From contig NW_003125395.1 in the NCBI RefSeq assembly GCF_000003605.2, forward strand, positions 201,715 to 265,714: DNA of 64,000 nucleotides. Reading direction: 5' to 3'. The notes under the pieces were generated by a model, which was not told the origin of the DNA, searched no databases, and saw only the letters and a program-made list of their open reading frames with translations. This DNA is from Saccoglossus kowalevskii (taxonomy: Eukaryota > Hemichordata > Enteropneusta > Harrimaniidae). Below, one piece after another: positions 1,738 to 36,651 of this stretch. Both the position numbers and the translations under genes were made by a program. The number at the start of each line of letters is the position of its first letter. Positions within the stretch are counted from its first letter, which is position 1.

Positions 1738-1976
1738 ATGCAAATTAAGGTGGCCATTACAAAAAATGTTGTATTCGTCAATATCTCATTAACTACACAT
1801 GGTATCAACATGATGTCGGTGTCTATCTCCGTGTTTTGAGGGGTAAAGAATCAGATTAAGACATTTCAGTAAAGTTTACACAAATATTTTGTGCTGAATA
1901 GGTATTCAATATGCAAATTAGGGCGGTCATTATGGAAAATCTTGTTTGTGTCAAAATCCAATTAACTACACATAGA
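1738..1976 (+). repeat. Left terminal inverted repeat of the Academ-like element
   Basis: This region matches the minus strand of about 7150-7387. Well-conserved blocks include CTCATTAACTACACATGGTA (from 1786), TTTTGAGGGGTAAAGAATCA (from about 1834) and TTTACACAAATATTTTGTG (from about 1875). The outer 20 bases are identical to the right end. The repeat includes one inner iteration of the terminal motif, ATGCAAATTAGGGCGGTCAT, at 1911. Confidence 0.85.
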
Positions 1977-2102
1977 ATTAAGCCATTTCAGTAAAGTTTA
2001 CACAAATATTTTGTGATGAATAGGTATTCAATATGCAAATTAGGGCCGTCATTATGGAAAATCTTGTTTGTGTCAAAATCCAATTAACTACACATAGAAT
2101 CA
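1859..2102 (+). repeat. Two tandem 122-bp subterminal units inside the left end
   Basis: Units 1859-1980 and 1981-2102 are nearly identical. Each runs from CATTTCAGTAAAGTTTACAC through a copy of the terminal motif (ATGCAAATTAGGGC, at 1911 and 2033) to AACTACACATAGAAT. With the outermost terminus at 1738, the left end carries the ATGCAAATTA motif three times. The right end has the outer copy and one diverged inner copy (about 7187-7219, minus strand). Such iterations are typical of transposase-binding arrays, but binding is inferred. Confidence 0.8.
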
Positions 2103-2245
2103 AAACAATTTTGGTCTTTATCCTAGCGGTAAAGAATTAGAATAAGCCATTTCTGAAAGATCACAACAATGTTTTATTGAAAATATGAAACAAATATTCT
2201 ATGTACATCAGATTCATAACATAACATCATCTTTGATTATGATTA

Positions 2246-2251
2246 TTTATT
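2246..2251 (-). promoter_or_regulatory. AATAAA polyadenylation signal of the transposase gene
   Basis: On the minus strand the hexamer AATAAA begins three bases past the stop codon that ends the CXC segment (stop at 2252-2257 region). It is in the right orientation and place to end the transposon mRNA. A signal overlapping the end of a coding region so closely suits a compact mobile element. Confidence 0.5.
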
Positions 2252-2254
2252 GAC

Positions 2255-2665
2255 TCAGTCCTCTAACAAGTCGCTTTCACTTGTCACCCATTGGGTGTGC
2301 TCATTCTGGCAGTGTGTTTCCCCGTGACATCCACAAAACATTGTACATGGTAAGTGAGCTACATAGCATCCACACATTGCTGTCGAACAGGGTGTATCCA
2401 TTGCACAACCACACCTTATCATTTCCAGTACCTTCGGTGGAGCAACACTAACATTTGGTTGCAATGTTACTGGGATCAAGCATTTAGTGCGTTCGTCATG
2501 TTCCCATCTAAACTCGACAGGATCTAATGCAGGAGGTTCTGCATTGAGAGCTGATTTCCAAATGGCGGTTTGAATGTGTGCCCACTTTACTTTCTCTTTG
2601 AATGCCTCTTTAGAAGGTGGGAGTGACTTAAGCTCTGGAGCCTTTGTCACATTTTTTCTACCCAT
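2255..2665 (-). pseudogene. Academ-like protein, C-terminal CXC cysteine cluster
   Basis: The C-terminal 136 residues of the transposon protein, in frame with the preceding segment but after an in-frame TGA. It contains LNAEPPALDPVEFRWE and KCLIPVTLQPNV, then a dense cysteine cluster with C85, C87, C93, C98, C100, C107, C111, C113 and C119 (RCGCAMD, CGC, CTMFCGCHGETHC). The spacing resembles a tesmin/TSO1-type CXC motif, which binds zinc and DNA. The protein ends LLED and stops right before an AATAAA signal, so this is the true C terminus. I do not know the role of the CXC in transposition; end recognition is possible. Confidence 0.65.
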
Positions 2666-2668
2666 CCT

Positions 2669-3166
2669 TCACATCCATACTTCTCCACGGACTTCAGACA
2701 TGTTCGATATCACCACGCTTTTGACTCCGTAGCAGGCAACCATGAATACTATGGCTTCATCAATGATGTCACCTATGTTCTCAGATAACACTCCCAATTT
2801 GTGCAGTTTTACACCACTCTTAAAGACTTTGATGATGGTGCTTTTTTCTACTCCAAAACACTGAGCCACAGTGCCACAGCCTGAGAGGGCATGAGCAGCT
2901 GGTAGCTATGAAAGCAAGTGTCCATGCTCACTTGCAGTTGCCCCAATGTCTATAGAGGCTCGTTCATAACTTGGTCCTTCCATAGTGAGACGGCAAGTCA
3001 GCTGCAACTCCCTGTAGTAGTGCAGCATAAGAACAAAAACATCTGTGTCCTCACATACAAAATTTATTCTTTGCACTCCACTTTCAGCAGCATTAATCAT
3101 TTGATGTATGATTATCTGCTTCTTCGTGGCAAGTCCAGAGAGGTTCTTTGTGGGAGACAATGCCAT
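2669..3166 (-). pseudogene. Academ-like protein, XPG/FEN1-like nuclease region
   Basis: Read in one frame with one internal TAG at 2903-2905. Key motifs are EDTDVFVLMLHYY (acidic EDxD, as in the XPG/FEN1 and PIN-like fold), DIGATA, and HALSGCGTVAQCFG followed by KSTIIKVF. In FEN1-type nucleases a similar region places metal-binding aspartates and then a helix-hairpin-helix that binds DNA; here the usual GCD appears as GCG, so a metal ligand may be lost. The frame change just upstream (about 3115) separates it from HEEAD. It is followed without a frame change, but across a TGA, by the CXC segment. An XPG domain is the main reason I call the element AcademX type. Confidence 0.6.
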
Positions 3167-3227
3167 TCTGAATTACAACTGGTATAGGGTCAGTAGAGGT
3201 AATGACCAGACTGTGATTATTCGGCTC

Positions 3228-3491
3228 TTATTGTGCTTTCTGGATCAAGTCCTGACATATCAGATCTATGACCTGTATCTTATTCGAGGTTACTGTAAGA
3301 ACAACCTTCTGAGGTGGCAACGGAGTATGTAACTGCAGTTTGTGTCGTCGACTCGCTTCATTACCAGCTCGAGCTGCGCATGTTCCACTTTTAATGCTGA
3401 AGTCGAAGTAGCAATCAAAGATAAAGTATGTGTCCTGGTTGGTCACCCTTTTCATTACATTCCTTGTGAAGCCGCTGACAAAATATGCCAC
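3228..3491 (-). pseudogene. Academ-like protein, pre-XPG segment
   Basis: An 87-residue segment, including VAYFVSGFTRNVMKRV and FIFDCYFDFSIKSGT, leading toward the nuclease-like region. It runs out of frame near 3300. From about 3220 to 3115 a different frame carries VVIQNGIVSH and TCHEEAD, where HEEAD is a familiar block before the EDTD motif of the nuclease. The FDCYFDFS stretch resembles the beginning of a strand with acidic residues. The piece is recognised mainly by its position between two family-typical segments. Confidence 0.5.
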
Positions 3492-3707
3492 AGTTCTTTG
3501 ATTAGGCCAGTTTATAACCCAAAGAAGAGCACATCCATCCAGTATTTATACCTCTGATTTCTCAATCAAGCGATGTGACACAGTCACCTGCAGCTTCTTC
3601 TTCAGTGTTGATTTCGTAGTTGCGATTCTCAAGTTGCCCTCATCGTCAAACGTGGAGGTAGGAACGGGTGACAGTTCATGTGCAAGGACAGTTTTGATAT
3701 TAATGTC

Positions 3708-4070
3708 TCAAGACAGTTGCAGCCTTAGTACCCGGGATAAGATTAGATTTGTGTCATACACTTTACTGTTCCCAACCTTTACTGCCTTCCTCTTCACTGC
3801 CATGGCCACAACCAACTTGGACAATGACTCATTAAATCCACCAGGCCAGATCTTTTCAAATGACACAAGTTGACCACTCCCAATATCCACTGCGTCATGT
3901 GCATTCACCGTTTCAGGTGCAATCTGTCCAGTAACAACATTGATTAAACCAGCAGGGTGAGCAGTTGGATCCGGGGGATCGATGCATATCAGAAGTTTGT
4001 CTCGTAGCTTGTCTCTGTCCTTGGCATCCAAAGTGATGCGTGATGACTTCTCTTCTTTATGACTTGTCAC
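3708..4070 (-). pseudogene. Academ-like protein, HKEE/IDPPDP segment
   Basis: A 120-residue segment beginning TSHKEEKSSRITLDAKDR, followed by CIDPPDPTAHPAGLINVVTG and then a VAMAVKRKAVKVG stretch ending in YDTNLILSRVL. In the multicopy family this region links the transposase-like core to the C-terminal nuclease-like half. Between about 3500 and 3700 the minus strand remains family-like, but only across more than one frame. The segment overlaps its upstream neighbour by a few bases, so the break is a small frameshift and not a large deletion. Confidence 0.55.
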
Positions 4071-4540
4071 CTCTTCTCTCCACTCTCATCCGACATGTCT
4101 GCATTATCCTGAACGATCATGCTGCATGTGTGCATACTGTATGCCATCGTTTCAGGCTTAAGTGTTATGCCTATGATTCCATTTGGAACATGCCCGTAAC
4201 GCATAAAGGTTGTCTCTATCCACATGTCAGACCAGATCCCGTTTCGGAGTCCTGGCTTGGGACGCATGGTGTGTTCACCTCTCATGAAACACTGAAGTAC
4301 TTCAGGTTGTAGGCGCTGCATTGTCCTCGGGTAGTACAACCCATATCTCATGTAGTTGAAGTGAGCAGAGACAAAACAATATGGCATCATTTGCTCTACT
4401 CCCCAGAGGTGGAGTGGACAGTCTGCCTCTCGTTCTGCCCGCACGAAGACTATCATGATGAAGACAGGCTTTATCAAGTTCTGAACCCAGAGGCGAGTTG
4501 TGATGCTTCTTGAGGAGAGAATTGTAAGTGCTTCAAACAT
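4067..4540 (-). pseudogene. Academ-like protein, core segment with IWSDMWIE block
   Basis: A 157-residue segment with the most distinctive core motifs: FVRAEREADCPLHLW, MMPYCFVSAHFNYMRYGLYY, FMRGEHTMR and GIWSDMWIETTFMR. The Asp/Glu residues in WSDMWIE are strong candidates for later catalytic acidic positions of a DDE/D-type core. The surrounding order (acidic block, then H-NY-RYG-YY, then IWSD--IE) is what I associate with this invertebrate transposon family. It ends in a frame change near 4070. Assignment as catalytic core is inference from motif order; no residue can be proven catalytic here. Confidence 0.6.
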
Positions 4541-4544
4541 CTCC

Positions 4545-4778
4545 TCATGAGCTTTTACATCCTTCCAGATGTGGACGCAACAGTTCTTCTGTCACTAACC
4601 GAAGGGCTCTAAAGTTCTTCCCCGACAGCATGTGTGCCACACCTCCAAAACATGATTTCATGATATCCTCAAGTCCACTGTCTGCCATCAATACCCCAAC
4701 ACAGCCAATAAAACTGATGAGCATGTGCATGCCCCGAGCCTTAGTATGAAATCCGAGCATCTCTCTTGGTAAACCCAT
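4545..4778 (-). pseudogene. Academ-like protein, GMHMLISF segment
   Basis: A 77-residue segment in a different frame from both neighbours. It contains RGMHMLISFIGCVGVLMADS, which continues the core of the previous segment, followed by GLEDIMKSCFGGVAHMLSGK and an EELLRPHL helix. These are family-typical blocks of the transposase-like core. Frame changes on both sides (near 4770 and 4545) show that the gene is broken. The small internal Met opening it is not a real start. Confidence 0.55.
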
Positions 4779-5272
4779 TTTACATTGACTGCAACTCTGT
4801 AGAGCTGCTGATCATTTGTCATAATAGTAATATCCTGGTCACATTCTTTTGTAAGATGCTGAGCCTCAGGCATGACTGTGATCATGGAGTCCGGATTGGT
4901 TGAATTCATATCAATAAATGGCAGATACATGGCCTTTGTCGCTGGTTTCACACTCTGTCCTTGCTCTCTACACATTTTGGTGTTGAAGCCACCAAACTCG
5001 ATTGGATTTGTGCTTGTAGCAACACACTTAAAGAACTCAAAGTCTAAATGGTGGGCCCTTTTTAAATCAACGACTTGGTGCGCCATTACTTTAAGTGGTA
5101 AGACTGAACGATTTACTTCACTGGAAGGCATGTTTGGCTTCTTAGGACCATAGTATCTCAGGATAGGAATATCTTCGATAATCTGTTTTTTCATCTCATC
5201 TTTTCCTATGCGACGGAAGGTCTGCTTATTGGCATCAGCTCTACCATGCTTATCCACAAATGTTAGTAGCAT
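4688..5272 (-). pseudogene. Academ-like protein, core segment with DQQLYRV block
   Basis: A 194-residue segment continuing the core. Conserved-looking blocks are YYGPKKPNMP, PFIDMNSTNPDSM, VMPEAQHLTKE and IMTNDQQLYRVAVNVKWV. The aspartate in TNDQQLYR is a candidate first catalytic acidic residue of an RNase H-like transposase core, because it ends a beta-strand-like stretch; this is inference. The last 30 or so residues are out of frame: the true continuation (PREMLGFHTKARGMHMLISF) lies in the next frame, so a frameshift sits near 4770. In family members this block leads directly into a GGMHMLM-type helix. Confidence 0.6.
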
Positions 5273-5589
5273 TGCGAGAGAGTGTGTGGATAGGAGCCCA
5301 TTCTGTGATGAAATCTGAGCATCGAAATTGTCAGAGACAAGTTGAACAATACTGTCTTCAGCATGGACATATCTCTTAACGATGCATTGCTTACAGCTGT
5401 TGCTGCTGCCGGTGCTTTGAACCTAAGAAATTCATCATAGCTGCAAGATACAGGGATTTCATGAAATTGCTCTATCAACCACTTCCTTTTGAAGACAACA
5501 CCTAGTGCAATCTGGAGGGTTTTGAATCTACCACTTACGGCATTAGTAACAATGTTCCCGATGAGAGCCCCTGGTAATGTGCGAACCAA
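5263..5589 (-). pseudogene. Academ-like protein, second segment (frameshifted)
   Basis: A 108-residue segment downstream of the zinc cluster, in the same frame as the first segment but separated from it by about 90 bases that read through in another frame. Recognisable blocks are GALIGNIVTNAVSG and SCSYDEFLRFKA, both typical of this invertebrate multicopy family, where YDE-LRFK is a conserved block. The frame is lost again near 5345: an adjacent frame continues sensibly with VQLVSDNFDAQISSQNG and then joins the next segment. I read this as the linker or first part of the transposase core. There is no independent start codon function here, because the ATG or GTG that opens it lies inside the original protein. 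Confidence 0.55.
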
Positions 5590-5682
5590 CTTTGAAGAAG
5601 CTTAGATAGCAAGGATAACAAAGTTCAACTGATACATTCAATGGCAATGTCCATATCAACTCTTGCATGATAGTTCTTGTCA

Positions 5683-6585
5683 TCAACTGATGACCTTCAC
5701 CAGCCCAATCTCAACATCATCTTCATCACAACTTGGCACTAGTTTCAACAAACTTGATGCCTTACTTCGAAAGACAAGAAGACTATCAACACCTGTGCCA
5801 CTCAGCATGAGAAGATCAGAACCAAAGTGTGCCAACAACTTGGAGAATGGAGTTCGGCGACTAATCTCTTTTCCACTTATATAGATCGTATAATTCGATG
5901 GATTCCATACTCGTGATGAATCTGCTCTAACTTCACTGACTGTCGCTTCAAATGCTACATCCATCTCCTTCTGGCTACTACTACATACTGCCGAAACTGA
6001 CTTCACTGGCCGAGGTGGACAAAACTTCTCGTTACAGTCTTTATGGTATCTACCATCTGCTGCATGAAGATCACTCACTGCCCCAGCTAAACGTGTCTCT
6101 ACCTCACGTCCCCAGTTGTCGTGACAAGATCTACAGATATATAGAAGGGTTTCCTTAAAATTCTTTCTGCCCTCACCATGGTCCGCTGTTCTACAAAGAA
6201 CAACCCTGCACCAACGGTTCGGATGCTTGTTATCAATGTCAAGGCATTCCTCACCGCAGAAAAGACAATGTTGCATGAAGTTGAAGGTTGTCGATCCGGA
6301 CCGACGCAGACGTTTTACTGCAGATCTATCTTCAGAAACTTTTGATGCGCTCAGTTTATTCAAGTGTCTCTTGATGTGAGATTTGGTTGTATATGTGGAT
6401 ACACAATCTCTATGACAAAGCACCTGTAAATTTGTGTCTGCCAGCAGTCTAGTTTCAAGACTTTCATGGAGATCATCAAATAACCGTTTACTTGATTCAA
6501 TGATAGTCTGTATCCTGCCAGTCCCTGTGACACTAAGTTCTTTCTTGCTTCCATTTACTTTGTAAAAGATGCAGCACCCATCCAT
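5683..6585 (-). pseudogene. Academ-like protein, N-terminal zinc-cluster segment
   Basis: A 300-residue open segment starting MDGCCIFYKVNG, the natural N terminus of the transposon protein. It carries a Cys/His array: C57 and C61, then C107, C110 and C114 (CLFCGEEC), C126 and C131, C151 and C154 (CRSC), and H174, H181 and C184 in HAADGRYHKDC. This pattern is typical of a large multicopy invertebrate protein family and fits a zinc-binding DNA-recognition module, as in the cysteine-rich finger reported for Academ. The segment continues to a predicted charged region (DEDDVE) and then meets a frame change near 5683. No intron is needed to read it. Function is inferred from the family and from its place inside the inverted repeats. 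Confidence 0.65.
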
Positions 6586-7149
6586 AGTTCAGCTCTGAAT
6601 GATACAACAAATATATGTGTGTCACTTTTACAGAACCAGGCACTTGAATAACAAATAGAGCAGTGGCTGCTTTAACCATGTGTAGCTACTAACATTGCAA
6701 GATTTTCAGGAATGGCAAATTGTCAGTAATGGTGGCCTTGATATGCATAATACATTTTTCCATTTTCTCAAAATTGATAATACAGGTTTTTCCATCAATC
6801 TAAACAATTCCCCCACACACATGCGTGTTCTGTAGTCAGATAGAGCAAATATTGCTGGATAAGTAAGCAGACACAAAAACAAACAGATGGCTGAAACATT
6901 ATTCACCTATCGCTAGCTATCACAAGTTCTGTTTCTTTTGACAACAAAACACAGCATTTTTGCACGTGGAGAAAAGACCCAGGGGTAATAAACACACACA
7001 GTGGAGAGTAACCCTAAACACTTGATGATACACAGCTCCTGATTGGTGGACTGATTTTTCCTTACGACCTTACTGATTGGTATATGTTTTTGAATGTTTT
7101 TTGGGCGGGAAATTCAAATGTATTAATCTGATCTGAAACCAAAATTATT
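6586..7149. other. 5' untranslated and subterminal part of the Academ-like element
   Basis: This lies between the transposase start codon and the right inverted repeat. No coding segment is seen. It should hold the element's own promoter on the minus strand, but I see no clear TATA box or initiator. Confidence 0.45.
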
Positions 7150-7387
7150 TTCATACCATGTGTTATACCATTGACACAAGCAAGATTTTTCATAATGACC
7201 GCCATAATTAGAATATTAAATATATATTCCGCACAAAATATTTGTGTAAACCTCACTTAAATGGCATAATCTGATTCTTTACCCCTCAAAACATGGGGAT
7301 AGACACCGAAATCGTGTTGATACCATGTGTAGTTAATGAGATAATAACGAAACCAAGATTTTCCTTTATGGCCACCTTAATTTGCAT
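7150..7387 (-). repeat. Right terminal inverted repeat of the Academ-like element
   Basis: Read on the minus strand from 7387, this begins with the same 20 bases as the left end and stays alignable with the left repeat to about 7150. It has one diverged subterminal iteration (about 7187-7219) and lacks the tandem duplication seen on the left. Beyond 7387 the similarity stops sharply, which fixes the element boundary. Confidence 0.85.
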
Positions 7388-7390
7388 AAT

Positions 7391-10300
7391 GTGCGGATTG
7401 CCCAAGGGTGACAGAGTTGCATCATCCATATTTTTAAAGAGCATACCTCAGAGGTATAGAAACAGCAAAAAAACTTTGTATGGACCGCATTGCAAGGCTA
7501 TCCAAAAAAACTGGAGTTTGGCAACCAGACTAAGAAGCACAAAAGGTGTATTAATTTCAGTGGATAAAAAATAACTATTACAGTATTAAAATAAAATTAT
7601 GCGATACAAACCATTCACTATAAAACTATTGAGTGTATAATATCATTATAACGAATCCAGCAATTCGAAAATAACTCACCCCAGACTGGTAGCATTGCAA
7701 CGAGGAGAGGAAAACGATTACGACGATGATGATGTACAATCACCAAACAGAATCCCATCAATAATAGTTCCAACATGTTGTCGAAAATCTCTCACTGTTT
7801 GTATCAAACCGATTGTTCTCGTACGTATTGATGACAGATGTTTAATTATATACTGCCGAATGCACTGTATATATGCATAGTGGAAATATTGCATAGTAGC
7901 AGCTCATGTCTAAAATTATCACATTTATTAAATCCCTATACAGAGACTGTGTGTGCTATTTTGGAAGGGTTGTTTATATGATAACATGCATTCTAGTCGA
8001 TGCGAAATAGTGTTAAGTAAGGGCTATTCCAAAATCCCCCTTCCGGTCAACACACATTGTAGAATGATAGTATTATTTCCAGAGGTGTAAATAATATAAC
8101 AACGTATAAAGCCGGATAGATCAATGACCCTATAATATTGTTTCAAAATATGCAATCGATTAATGCATATAATGAAATAATAACGTCTCCCACTTTTATT
8201 TTCAGTTGAACCGTCAAATATTTAAATCTCACAAATAAAAATAAATCAATCATCTCTTGTACATGAATGATGTAAGGAAAGATAACGAATTTAATATTTT
8301 GTGTTTGTCACCGGGAAATAGTTCATTTGATTTGTGTCCGGTCATGCACAGAAGTGAATGCCTGACACTGTTGTGTTATCACATACACAAAGTGAGGGTA
8401 TTATTCGTACATGTATTAACACAAATATTCGCTTTCGCCGTTCACATACAGTGCGCTTGTCGATTATAATGATAATGTGCGAGTTATTATGTTTTGATCA
8501 ATTTTTGTTCTTATCATTTAAATTGTTACATACGTGTAAATTGATTTAGTAATGTTAGGCATTGCAAGTTGTTGAATTACTGCATATAAACGTAAACTAA
8601 CATGTTATATTCAATTGAATAATTATTTATAGTATTTTTTGTATTTTTGTTTTCATTTCGGAAAGAGAAGAATACAGTTTAGATTTCGTAACTTAAAACA
8701 AATATACGCATAAGGTAGTCCGAGTATTTTAATATATTTCAAGAGCAGTAATAAAGGCGTTTTTGGCGTTTTGAACTCGTTGAAACTAGAAACAGTAAAT
8801 AACTGTTGACATCGACATTCAAACTATGTCAATTCGTTCATCGACCGTACAAAGTAATTCTTTGATTAATGATCTACAAATACTGAATCACCAGTATTAT
8901 ACATTTAAACTAGTCATATTTCTTCTCGGACATATATTTTTGATAGATAATACTAATATTCATGCACGAACGAGTCTTAAAATCCAAGAAATAGAGCTAT
9001 CGAGTCTTGTGTCTGAATCTCATGATGGGGGTGTTGAAACAACGCGTGTGATTTAATCGTTGAGGCCCTAAAATGCACAAATCGATATATTGTATATATG
9101 ACAGAAGAGTCTTTCAATGCATGAATAACATAGTTGAAATTCATAGAATAAAATTACCACTACCTATTAGGTGACTTTAAACTTTAAACTTTTTCTTAAA
9201 ATTGGAGGTACTCAACTCTTTGTCTATGTGTAAAAAGAACCCTCTCCTTTCAAGTAAGTGTTGATACTTTGTCGTATATATGGTGTTTAAATGTATGTAT
9301 GTACTGACATGCACTGTAATGGCGCCATAGTGTATATAACACCCGTTTTCACTAAATTCCTACGTTAGCAATTGATAATGATGGACAATTTGTATTTATA
9401 ATGTTATAAAACCTCAAACCACAGGTGGAAAATAATATTCATGATTGTCGTTAATACGATAATCCCATGGGAAGCTATACATGTTTTATAAAATGTGATC
9501 AAATTTCAATTTAATAAATAATCTGTTATGTCAGTTGCACGTGTTCATGTTACACAAAATACTCCGGGTTATTCGGTGATTTAATGAAACGTGTATCATC
9601 CGCTACTACTTGTACGAACCGTTGCTAAGAAGCAAGCAGTTATTCATGATGGTGCTCATCCTCAAATTGTAGCTGGATTGAGTAACCAGGCGACAACGGT
9701 GTACTGTTTAAGAGAATAAACGGTACGTAGATCAAGTTTACAATCATTTAAATTTTAATAATAGGAATGTTACAGTTTATTCCCAAATGCATTGAGAAGA
9801 TCTCATATTGAGACGCCACGAAACTAATATTCTATGCTCAGGAACTTGCGTCCATGCTCGGTCATTAATATGTAATTTATATGTAATTTTATGTTCTGTC
9901 TGTGCGTGTTACTAACAAGCTCGAACATTGTTTCATTTGTTAGTGAGCTCAAGTACAACATAAATAACATACATTATTATATGCAAATATCACCGATAAA
10001 TTTACAGATGACCATAAATTTACAGATGACCCTTTCAAAGAAACTTGAATATAGTTTGACAGTTTGACAGTTTACAATTCTGTTCTTTGATGATTCTACG
10101 TTGTGGCACAGTGAACACTATATTGAAACTGTTATACCCCACAATACATATACTTATTCAATATTATTCAATAAACTAAATGTACATATGTCAATTGGAA
10201 TCAAGACAGTCGAATTGCGTTGAATGAGTTAGTATACCATGCATTGCACATTAGTTTCTGTATCAGAACTGATTTCTAATTTATAACGAAACTATAAATA

Positions 10301-36243: not shown

Positions 36244-36651
<408 letters not shown>

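Follow-up and report, generated by a model that had tools for sequence, protein, structure and literature searches.

A decayed, probably Academ-type DNA transposon with an XPG-like nuclease region and a CXC-type cysteine-rich tail in Saccoglossus kowalevskii

The 64,000-nucleotide stretch of Saccoglossus kowalevskii DNA that was analysed as a whole (the window) raises the question of what kind of mobile element it holds, where this element ends, and whether it is complete. A first-pass annotation had described a complete but dead Academ-like transposon at 1738-7387, flanked by a possible 3-bp AAT duplication. In our analysis, the element is probably a cut-and-paste DNA transposon, autonomous in the past and since decayed, that is best filed with the AcademX-type Academ elements and of which one end is missing its outer part. 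Two long inverted repeats (1733-1954 pairing with 7171-7392; 222 nt, 87% complementary) surround a single decayed protein gene on the minus strand, which runs from about 6585 to 2255 and is readable only in fragments, and to this extent the description of a dead transposon with long inverted repeats was confirmed. The gene is broken into nine open pieces of at least 80 amino acids and some shorter ones, with the reading frame changing between pieces; the window copy is therefore dead. The TNDQQLYR, IWSDMWIE and EDTD motifs and the Cys-rich tail on which the annotation relied were all located in minus-strand translations, and the order of the regions was supported, with a Cys/His-rich piece at the N-terminus followed by the transposase-like core, the XPG-like region and, last, the CXC-type tail. 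The features of the window copy are as follows:

1733-1954, no strand: left terminal-repeat arm, pairing with 7171-7392 (87%); the outer part present in sister copies is missing
1855-2107, no strand: subterminal tandem repeat, period 122, 2.1 copies, 95% matches, with further ATGCAAATTAGGG blocks at about 1911 and 2033
2255-2668, minus strand: C-terminal piece of 137 aa with the nine-cysteine CXC-type tail
2672-2905, minus strand: last part of the XPG-like region (HALSGCGT...); the Asp of GCD is lost, the sister copy on contig C4078 reading GCDT
2906-3172, minus strand: XPG-like region, CEDTDVFVL piece
3228-3545, minus strand: first part of the XPG-like region (ILDGCALL, IFDCYFDFSIK); the relatives' motif aligns from exonuclease 1 residue 74 onward
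3708-4085, minus strand: linker piece from core to nuclease, without a named domain
4067-4591, minus strand: transposase-like core, IWSDMWIE piece with the candidate Glu, kept in 6/6 aligning places
4545-4811, minus strand: core piece in another frame (LGFHTKARGMHMLISFIGCVG...)
4688-5422, minus strand: transposase-like core, DNFD and TNDQQLYR piece with the candidate Asp residues, kept in relatives
5263-5601, minus strand: further core piece, located upstream of the one with DNFD and read in a different frame
5683-6588, minus strand: N-terminal piece with the Cys/His-rich cluster, first Met codon at 6585
7171-7532, no strand: right terminal-repeat arm including the true terminus CCAGACTA at 7525-7532

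Scans of the element pieces against Pfam and NCBIfam at the curated cut-offs named no transposase, XPG or CXC domain, and the N-terminal Cys/His-rich piece matched neither collection. The sequences of seven relatives gave only chance-level names against Pfam, and no relative of the element was found in the viral contigs scanned. The dN/dS values, which are rough because part of the aligned stretches is frame-shifted, were 0.59 against the copy on C4078 (575 codons), 0.61 and 0.43 against the two copies on contig C3087 (at 145 kb, 785 codons, and at 92 kb, 159 codons, respectively), and 0.92 against the copy on C4320 (121 codons). These values are consistent with constraint in the past and decay thereafter.

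A nucleotide-level search of this genome (572 Mb, 4,830 contigs) located the element at eight places at least, the window included, and nine ends were read from six places: both ends of the window copy, of the C4078 copy and of the C3087 copy at 145 kb, and one end each of the copies on C3087 (92 kb), C4320 and C1914. The ends of the element were different from the boundaries first drawn as follows: First, in eight of the nine ends (two of which contain an internal deletion), shared sequence continues for 96-145 bp outside 1738 or 7387, and both boundaries were thus misplaced. Since the repeats of the sister copies extend farther outward, the right terminus of the window copy is 7532 and not 7387. 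The outer terminus reads TAGTYYGG in seven of eight ends and CAGTCTGG in the other. Second, the left end of the window copy, as the sole exception among the nine, has no shared sequence past about 1733. Because this arm is without the outer part found in the sister copies, the window copy is incomplete. The missing outer repeat was sought elsewhere on the window's contig and not found; an assembly gap of 194 N lies at 1230-1423, and it is possible that the left outer repeat was lost in the assembly next to this gap. Third, AAT constitutes the three letters directly outside ATG(C/A)AAATTA (read inwards) in eight of the nine ends, while the right end of the window copy has ATT, which differs by one base and on the plus strand resembles a second AAT. 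The AAT pair therefore lies within the repeat, and we rejected it as a target-site duplication, since it consists of internal repeat sequence plus one changed base. A complete element from 1738 to 7387 would agree with AAT adjoining both boundaries on the plus strand, but the sequence outside these boundaries is common to other copies in 8/9 ends, the window's right side included, and this reading is almost certainly wrong.

Both outer ends are kept in two of the eight places, on C4078 (3,988 bp) and on C3087 (5,334 bp), which are flanked on both sides by TCT and by TGG, respectively. When lengths of 2-10 and symmetric shifts from -12 to +12 were scanned in both copies, the two agreed only at length 3 and shift 0, apart from a single match of 2 bp lying 12 bp inwards. 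Farther out in the flanks, 3-bp matches arose by chance in 2/76 cases. The comparison of flanks thus supports a 3-bp target-site duplication on two copies, both of those with both outer ends (2/2), so that of the duplication proposed by the first-pass annotation the length was retained and the AAT itself was not. For a relative on C2226, the inverted repeat around it was examined and no clear duplication was seen; the ends of a relative on C1340 yielded no readable duplication. The ends and the duplication of the element are corrected in this way, and the locus illustrates how boundaries of this kind can be settled with sister copies.

Two further observations concern the sister copies. Two types, GGTTGCCAAAC and GGTGGCAGAG, can be distinguished in the outermost 45 bp of the repeats (locus L009, 1284-5271; locus L010, 1265-6598; window, 7532). 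The GGTTGCCAAAC type lies 5' of the gene in the window and C4078 copies but 3' of it in C3087, as if ends had been exchanged. In addition, the element copies at about 145 kb and about 92 kb of C3087 (loci L018 and L020) have a common left flank of about 1.3 kb with 83% identity, which suggests the duplication of a segment and not two separate insertions.

The core piece had 13 matches in the genome, its own copies counted, and no match in Pfam or NCBIfam. It contains a candidate triad made up of DNFD, DQQLYR and (W/S)SDxxIE, in which the first Asp was kept in 2/2, the second Asp in 2/2 and the Glu in 6/6 of the relative places that align. Because the predicted structure of the core piece was uninformative (mean pLDDT 29.4), it is by this conservation that we assign the D, D, E series as the candidate catalytic triad.

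For the region downstream of the core, the nuclease-plus-tail piece of a sister copy was used as the query for genome relatives (E <= 0.001), and gave 75 matches with identities down to 24%, a count that includes its own copies and separate pieces of a single copy. A profile of seven relatives returned eight PDB hits with E values up to 10; the best four were exonuclease 1 (E 0.012-0.068), aligned over residues 74-253, and the remaining four were unrelated. A second profile, with 6/7 rows in common with the first, returned exonuclease 1 in all five of its PDB hits (E 0.017-1.1), the best stretch being mainly the GCD/GxG part. Single-sequence searches of the nuclease region against PDB and Pfam found nothing. 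The window copy itself exhibits the motif series ILDGCALL, IFDCYFDFSIK, EEAD (in another frame), CEDTDVFV and GCGT, the last of which is GCDT in the sister copy. Taken with this series, the exonuclease 1 profile hits, weak but specific, support the presence of an XPG-like nuclease region in the transposon protein. The XPG/FEN1-like assignment of the first-pass annotation therefore stands on its motifs and on the profile hits, without a single-sequence Pfam hit. The region is like XPG, FEN1 and exonuclease 1 in the alignment of the relatives' profile and in the series of acidic motifs, and unlike them in that the similarity is weak even at the best E value, that it occurs here within a transposon protein, and that the window copy reads GCG instead of GCD.

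In the tail of the window copy, nine Cys fall in a stretch of about 50 residues, with an Asn two places past the ninth. This strict pattern was present in 4 of the 19 sequences scanned, three sister copies being among the 15 that fail. None of 30 base-shuffled versions of the window showed it; the control is mild, given that such shuffles contain no Cys-rich protein. Across the six tails that were aligned, seven Cys never vary, and five of the six have the Asn. The Pfam TCR model gave 13.1 bits (E 0.12), which is below the curated cut-off of 23.5; therefore, we name the tail CXC-type and not a member of the Pfam family. With this change of wording the earlier CXC assignment holds, as far as the nine Cys and the signature Asn are concerned. 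The tail resembles the CXC domain of MSL2, tesmin/TSO1 and LIN54 in these two features, and differs from it in having one cluster, a spacing of its own and a score under the TCR cut-off.

To which superfamily does the element belong? The nuclease of AcademX elements is of the XPG type. In PMC10045372, AcademX is tied to a nuclease and to duplications of 3 or 4 bp, and AcademH to a helicase and to duplications of 9 or 10 bp; because the 3-bp duplication together with the nuclease fits this description, we filed the element under AcademX, which it also resembles in having a transposase-like core and a nuclease in one element. Furthermore, bivalve Academ elements have a mean length of 5,565 bp in the curated library of PMC10294476, close to the 5,334 bp of the sister copy. 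The CXC-type tail, in contrast, is unlike Academ as described in open papers: a search of open-access full text found no paper linking Academ with a CXC or tesmin-type domain, from which it does not follow that the tail is unreported. Judged by such descriptions, the superfamily is likely to be Academ, and the name given by the first-pass annotation, with which the duplication length and the nuclease agree, is retained as probable. The outcome of this open-access search, together with a core that neither Pfam nor NCBIfam matches and an Academ likeness judged by description, would also suit a separate, perhaps unnamed superfamily that combines an XPG-like nuclease and a CXC-type tail with a core that is not Academ. 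The AcademX-like pairing of duplication and nuclease and the near-typical length of the sister copy both argue against this reading, which we regard as unlikely.

A better-known superfamily with short duplications, namely Harbinger, EnSpm/CACTA or Kolobok, is very improbable. Harbinger and EnSpm are both able to make 3-bp duplications, and would agree with the element in this respect; the Harbinger duplication is TWA, and the ends of EnSpm/CACTA are CACT. The duplications of the two copies are TCT and TGG, not TWA, which rejects Harbinger, and the ends are TAGTYYGG or the single variant given above, not CACT, which rejects EnSpm/CACTA. The presence of a nuclease would be compatible with Kolobok, whose KolobokD lineage carries one, but in PMC9587614 this nuclease is of the DnaQ type and the Kolobok duplication is TTAA, not TCT or TGG. 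With Academ preferred, we most likely deal with an ordinary representative of a known type of transposon.

The left arm contains three copies of the ATGCAAATTARGG block (near 1738, 1911 and 2033); in the right arm there is one clear copy ending at 7387 and a further degraded copy near 7190-7213. We guess that these blocks are putative binding sites. In the working that we propose, of which every binding and catalytic step, as well as the Academ name, is inferred, a single protein of about 1,400 residues (as judged from the distance between 6585 and 2255) would act as the transposase. Its zinc-binding parts, the Cys/His-rich cluster at the N-terminus and the CXC-type cluster at the C-terminus, would find the long terminal repeats and the blocks; the D, D, E core would cut and join DNA, the cuts at the target being staggered by 3 bp; and the XPG-like nuclease may remove flaps or process ends during excision or gap filling. 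The sequence evidence places an XPG-like nuclease and a CXC-type cluster in one protein across related transposons of one genome, and what the cysteine tail does in transposition can thereby be posed as a concrete, testable question. The fuller proposal, that core, XPG-like nuclease and CXC-type tail form a stable architecture of many families in this genome and that the tail reads the subterminal blocks, is doubtful, and we would give it little weight; if true, such reading would be a way of end recognition not described for Academ.

The ends of the relative on C1340 were also compared. This relative is about 36% identical to the element in part of the core, and its ends scored 39 (left) and 36 (right) against the window's outer repeat, where the maximum in 200 shuffles, made for the left end only, was 36. 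TTGGGCAA is present in both. The comparison is no more than suggestive of a relationship between these ends and the window's terminus. Beside the C1340 relative lies an open piece on the minus strand (locus L060, 6042-6500) that seems to resemble a LINE reverse transcriptase, and beside a partial copy of the element lie minus-strand open pieces (locus L011, about 3700-5000) which we take to resemble the integrase of a Pao/BEL-type retrotransposon. Elsewhere in the window, a long TA run at 36248-36647 encloses an assembly gap at 36289-36548.
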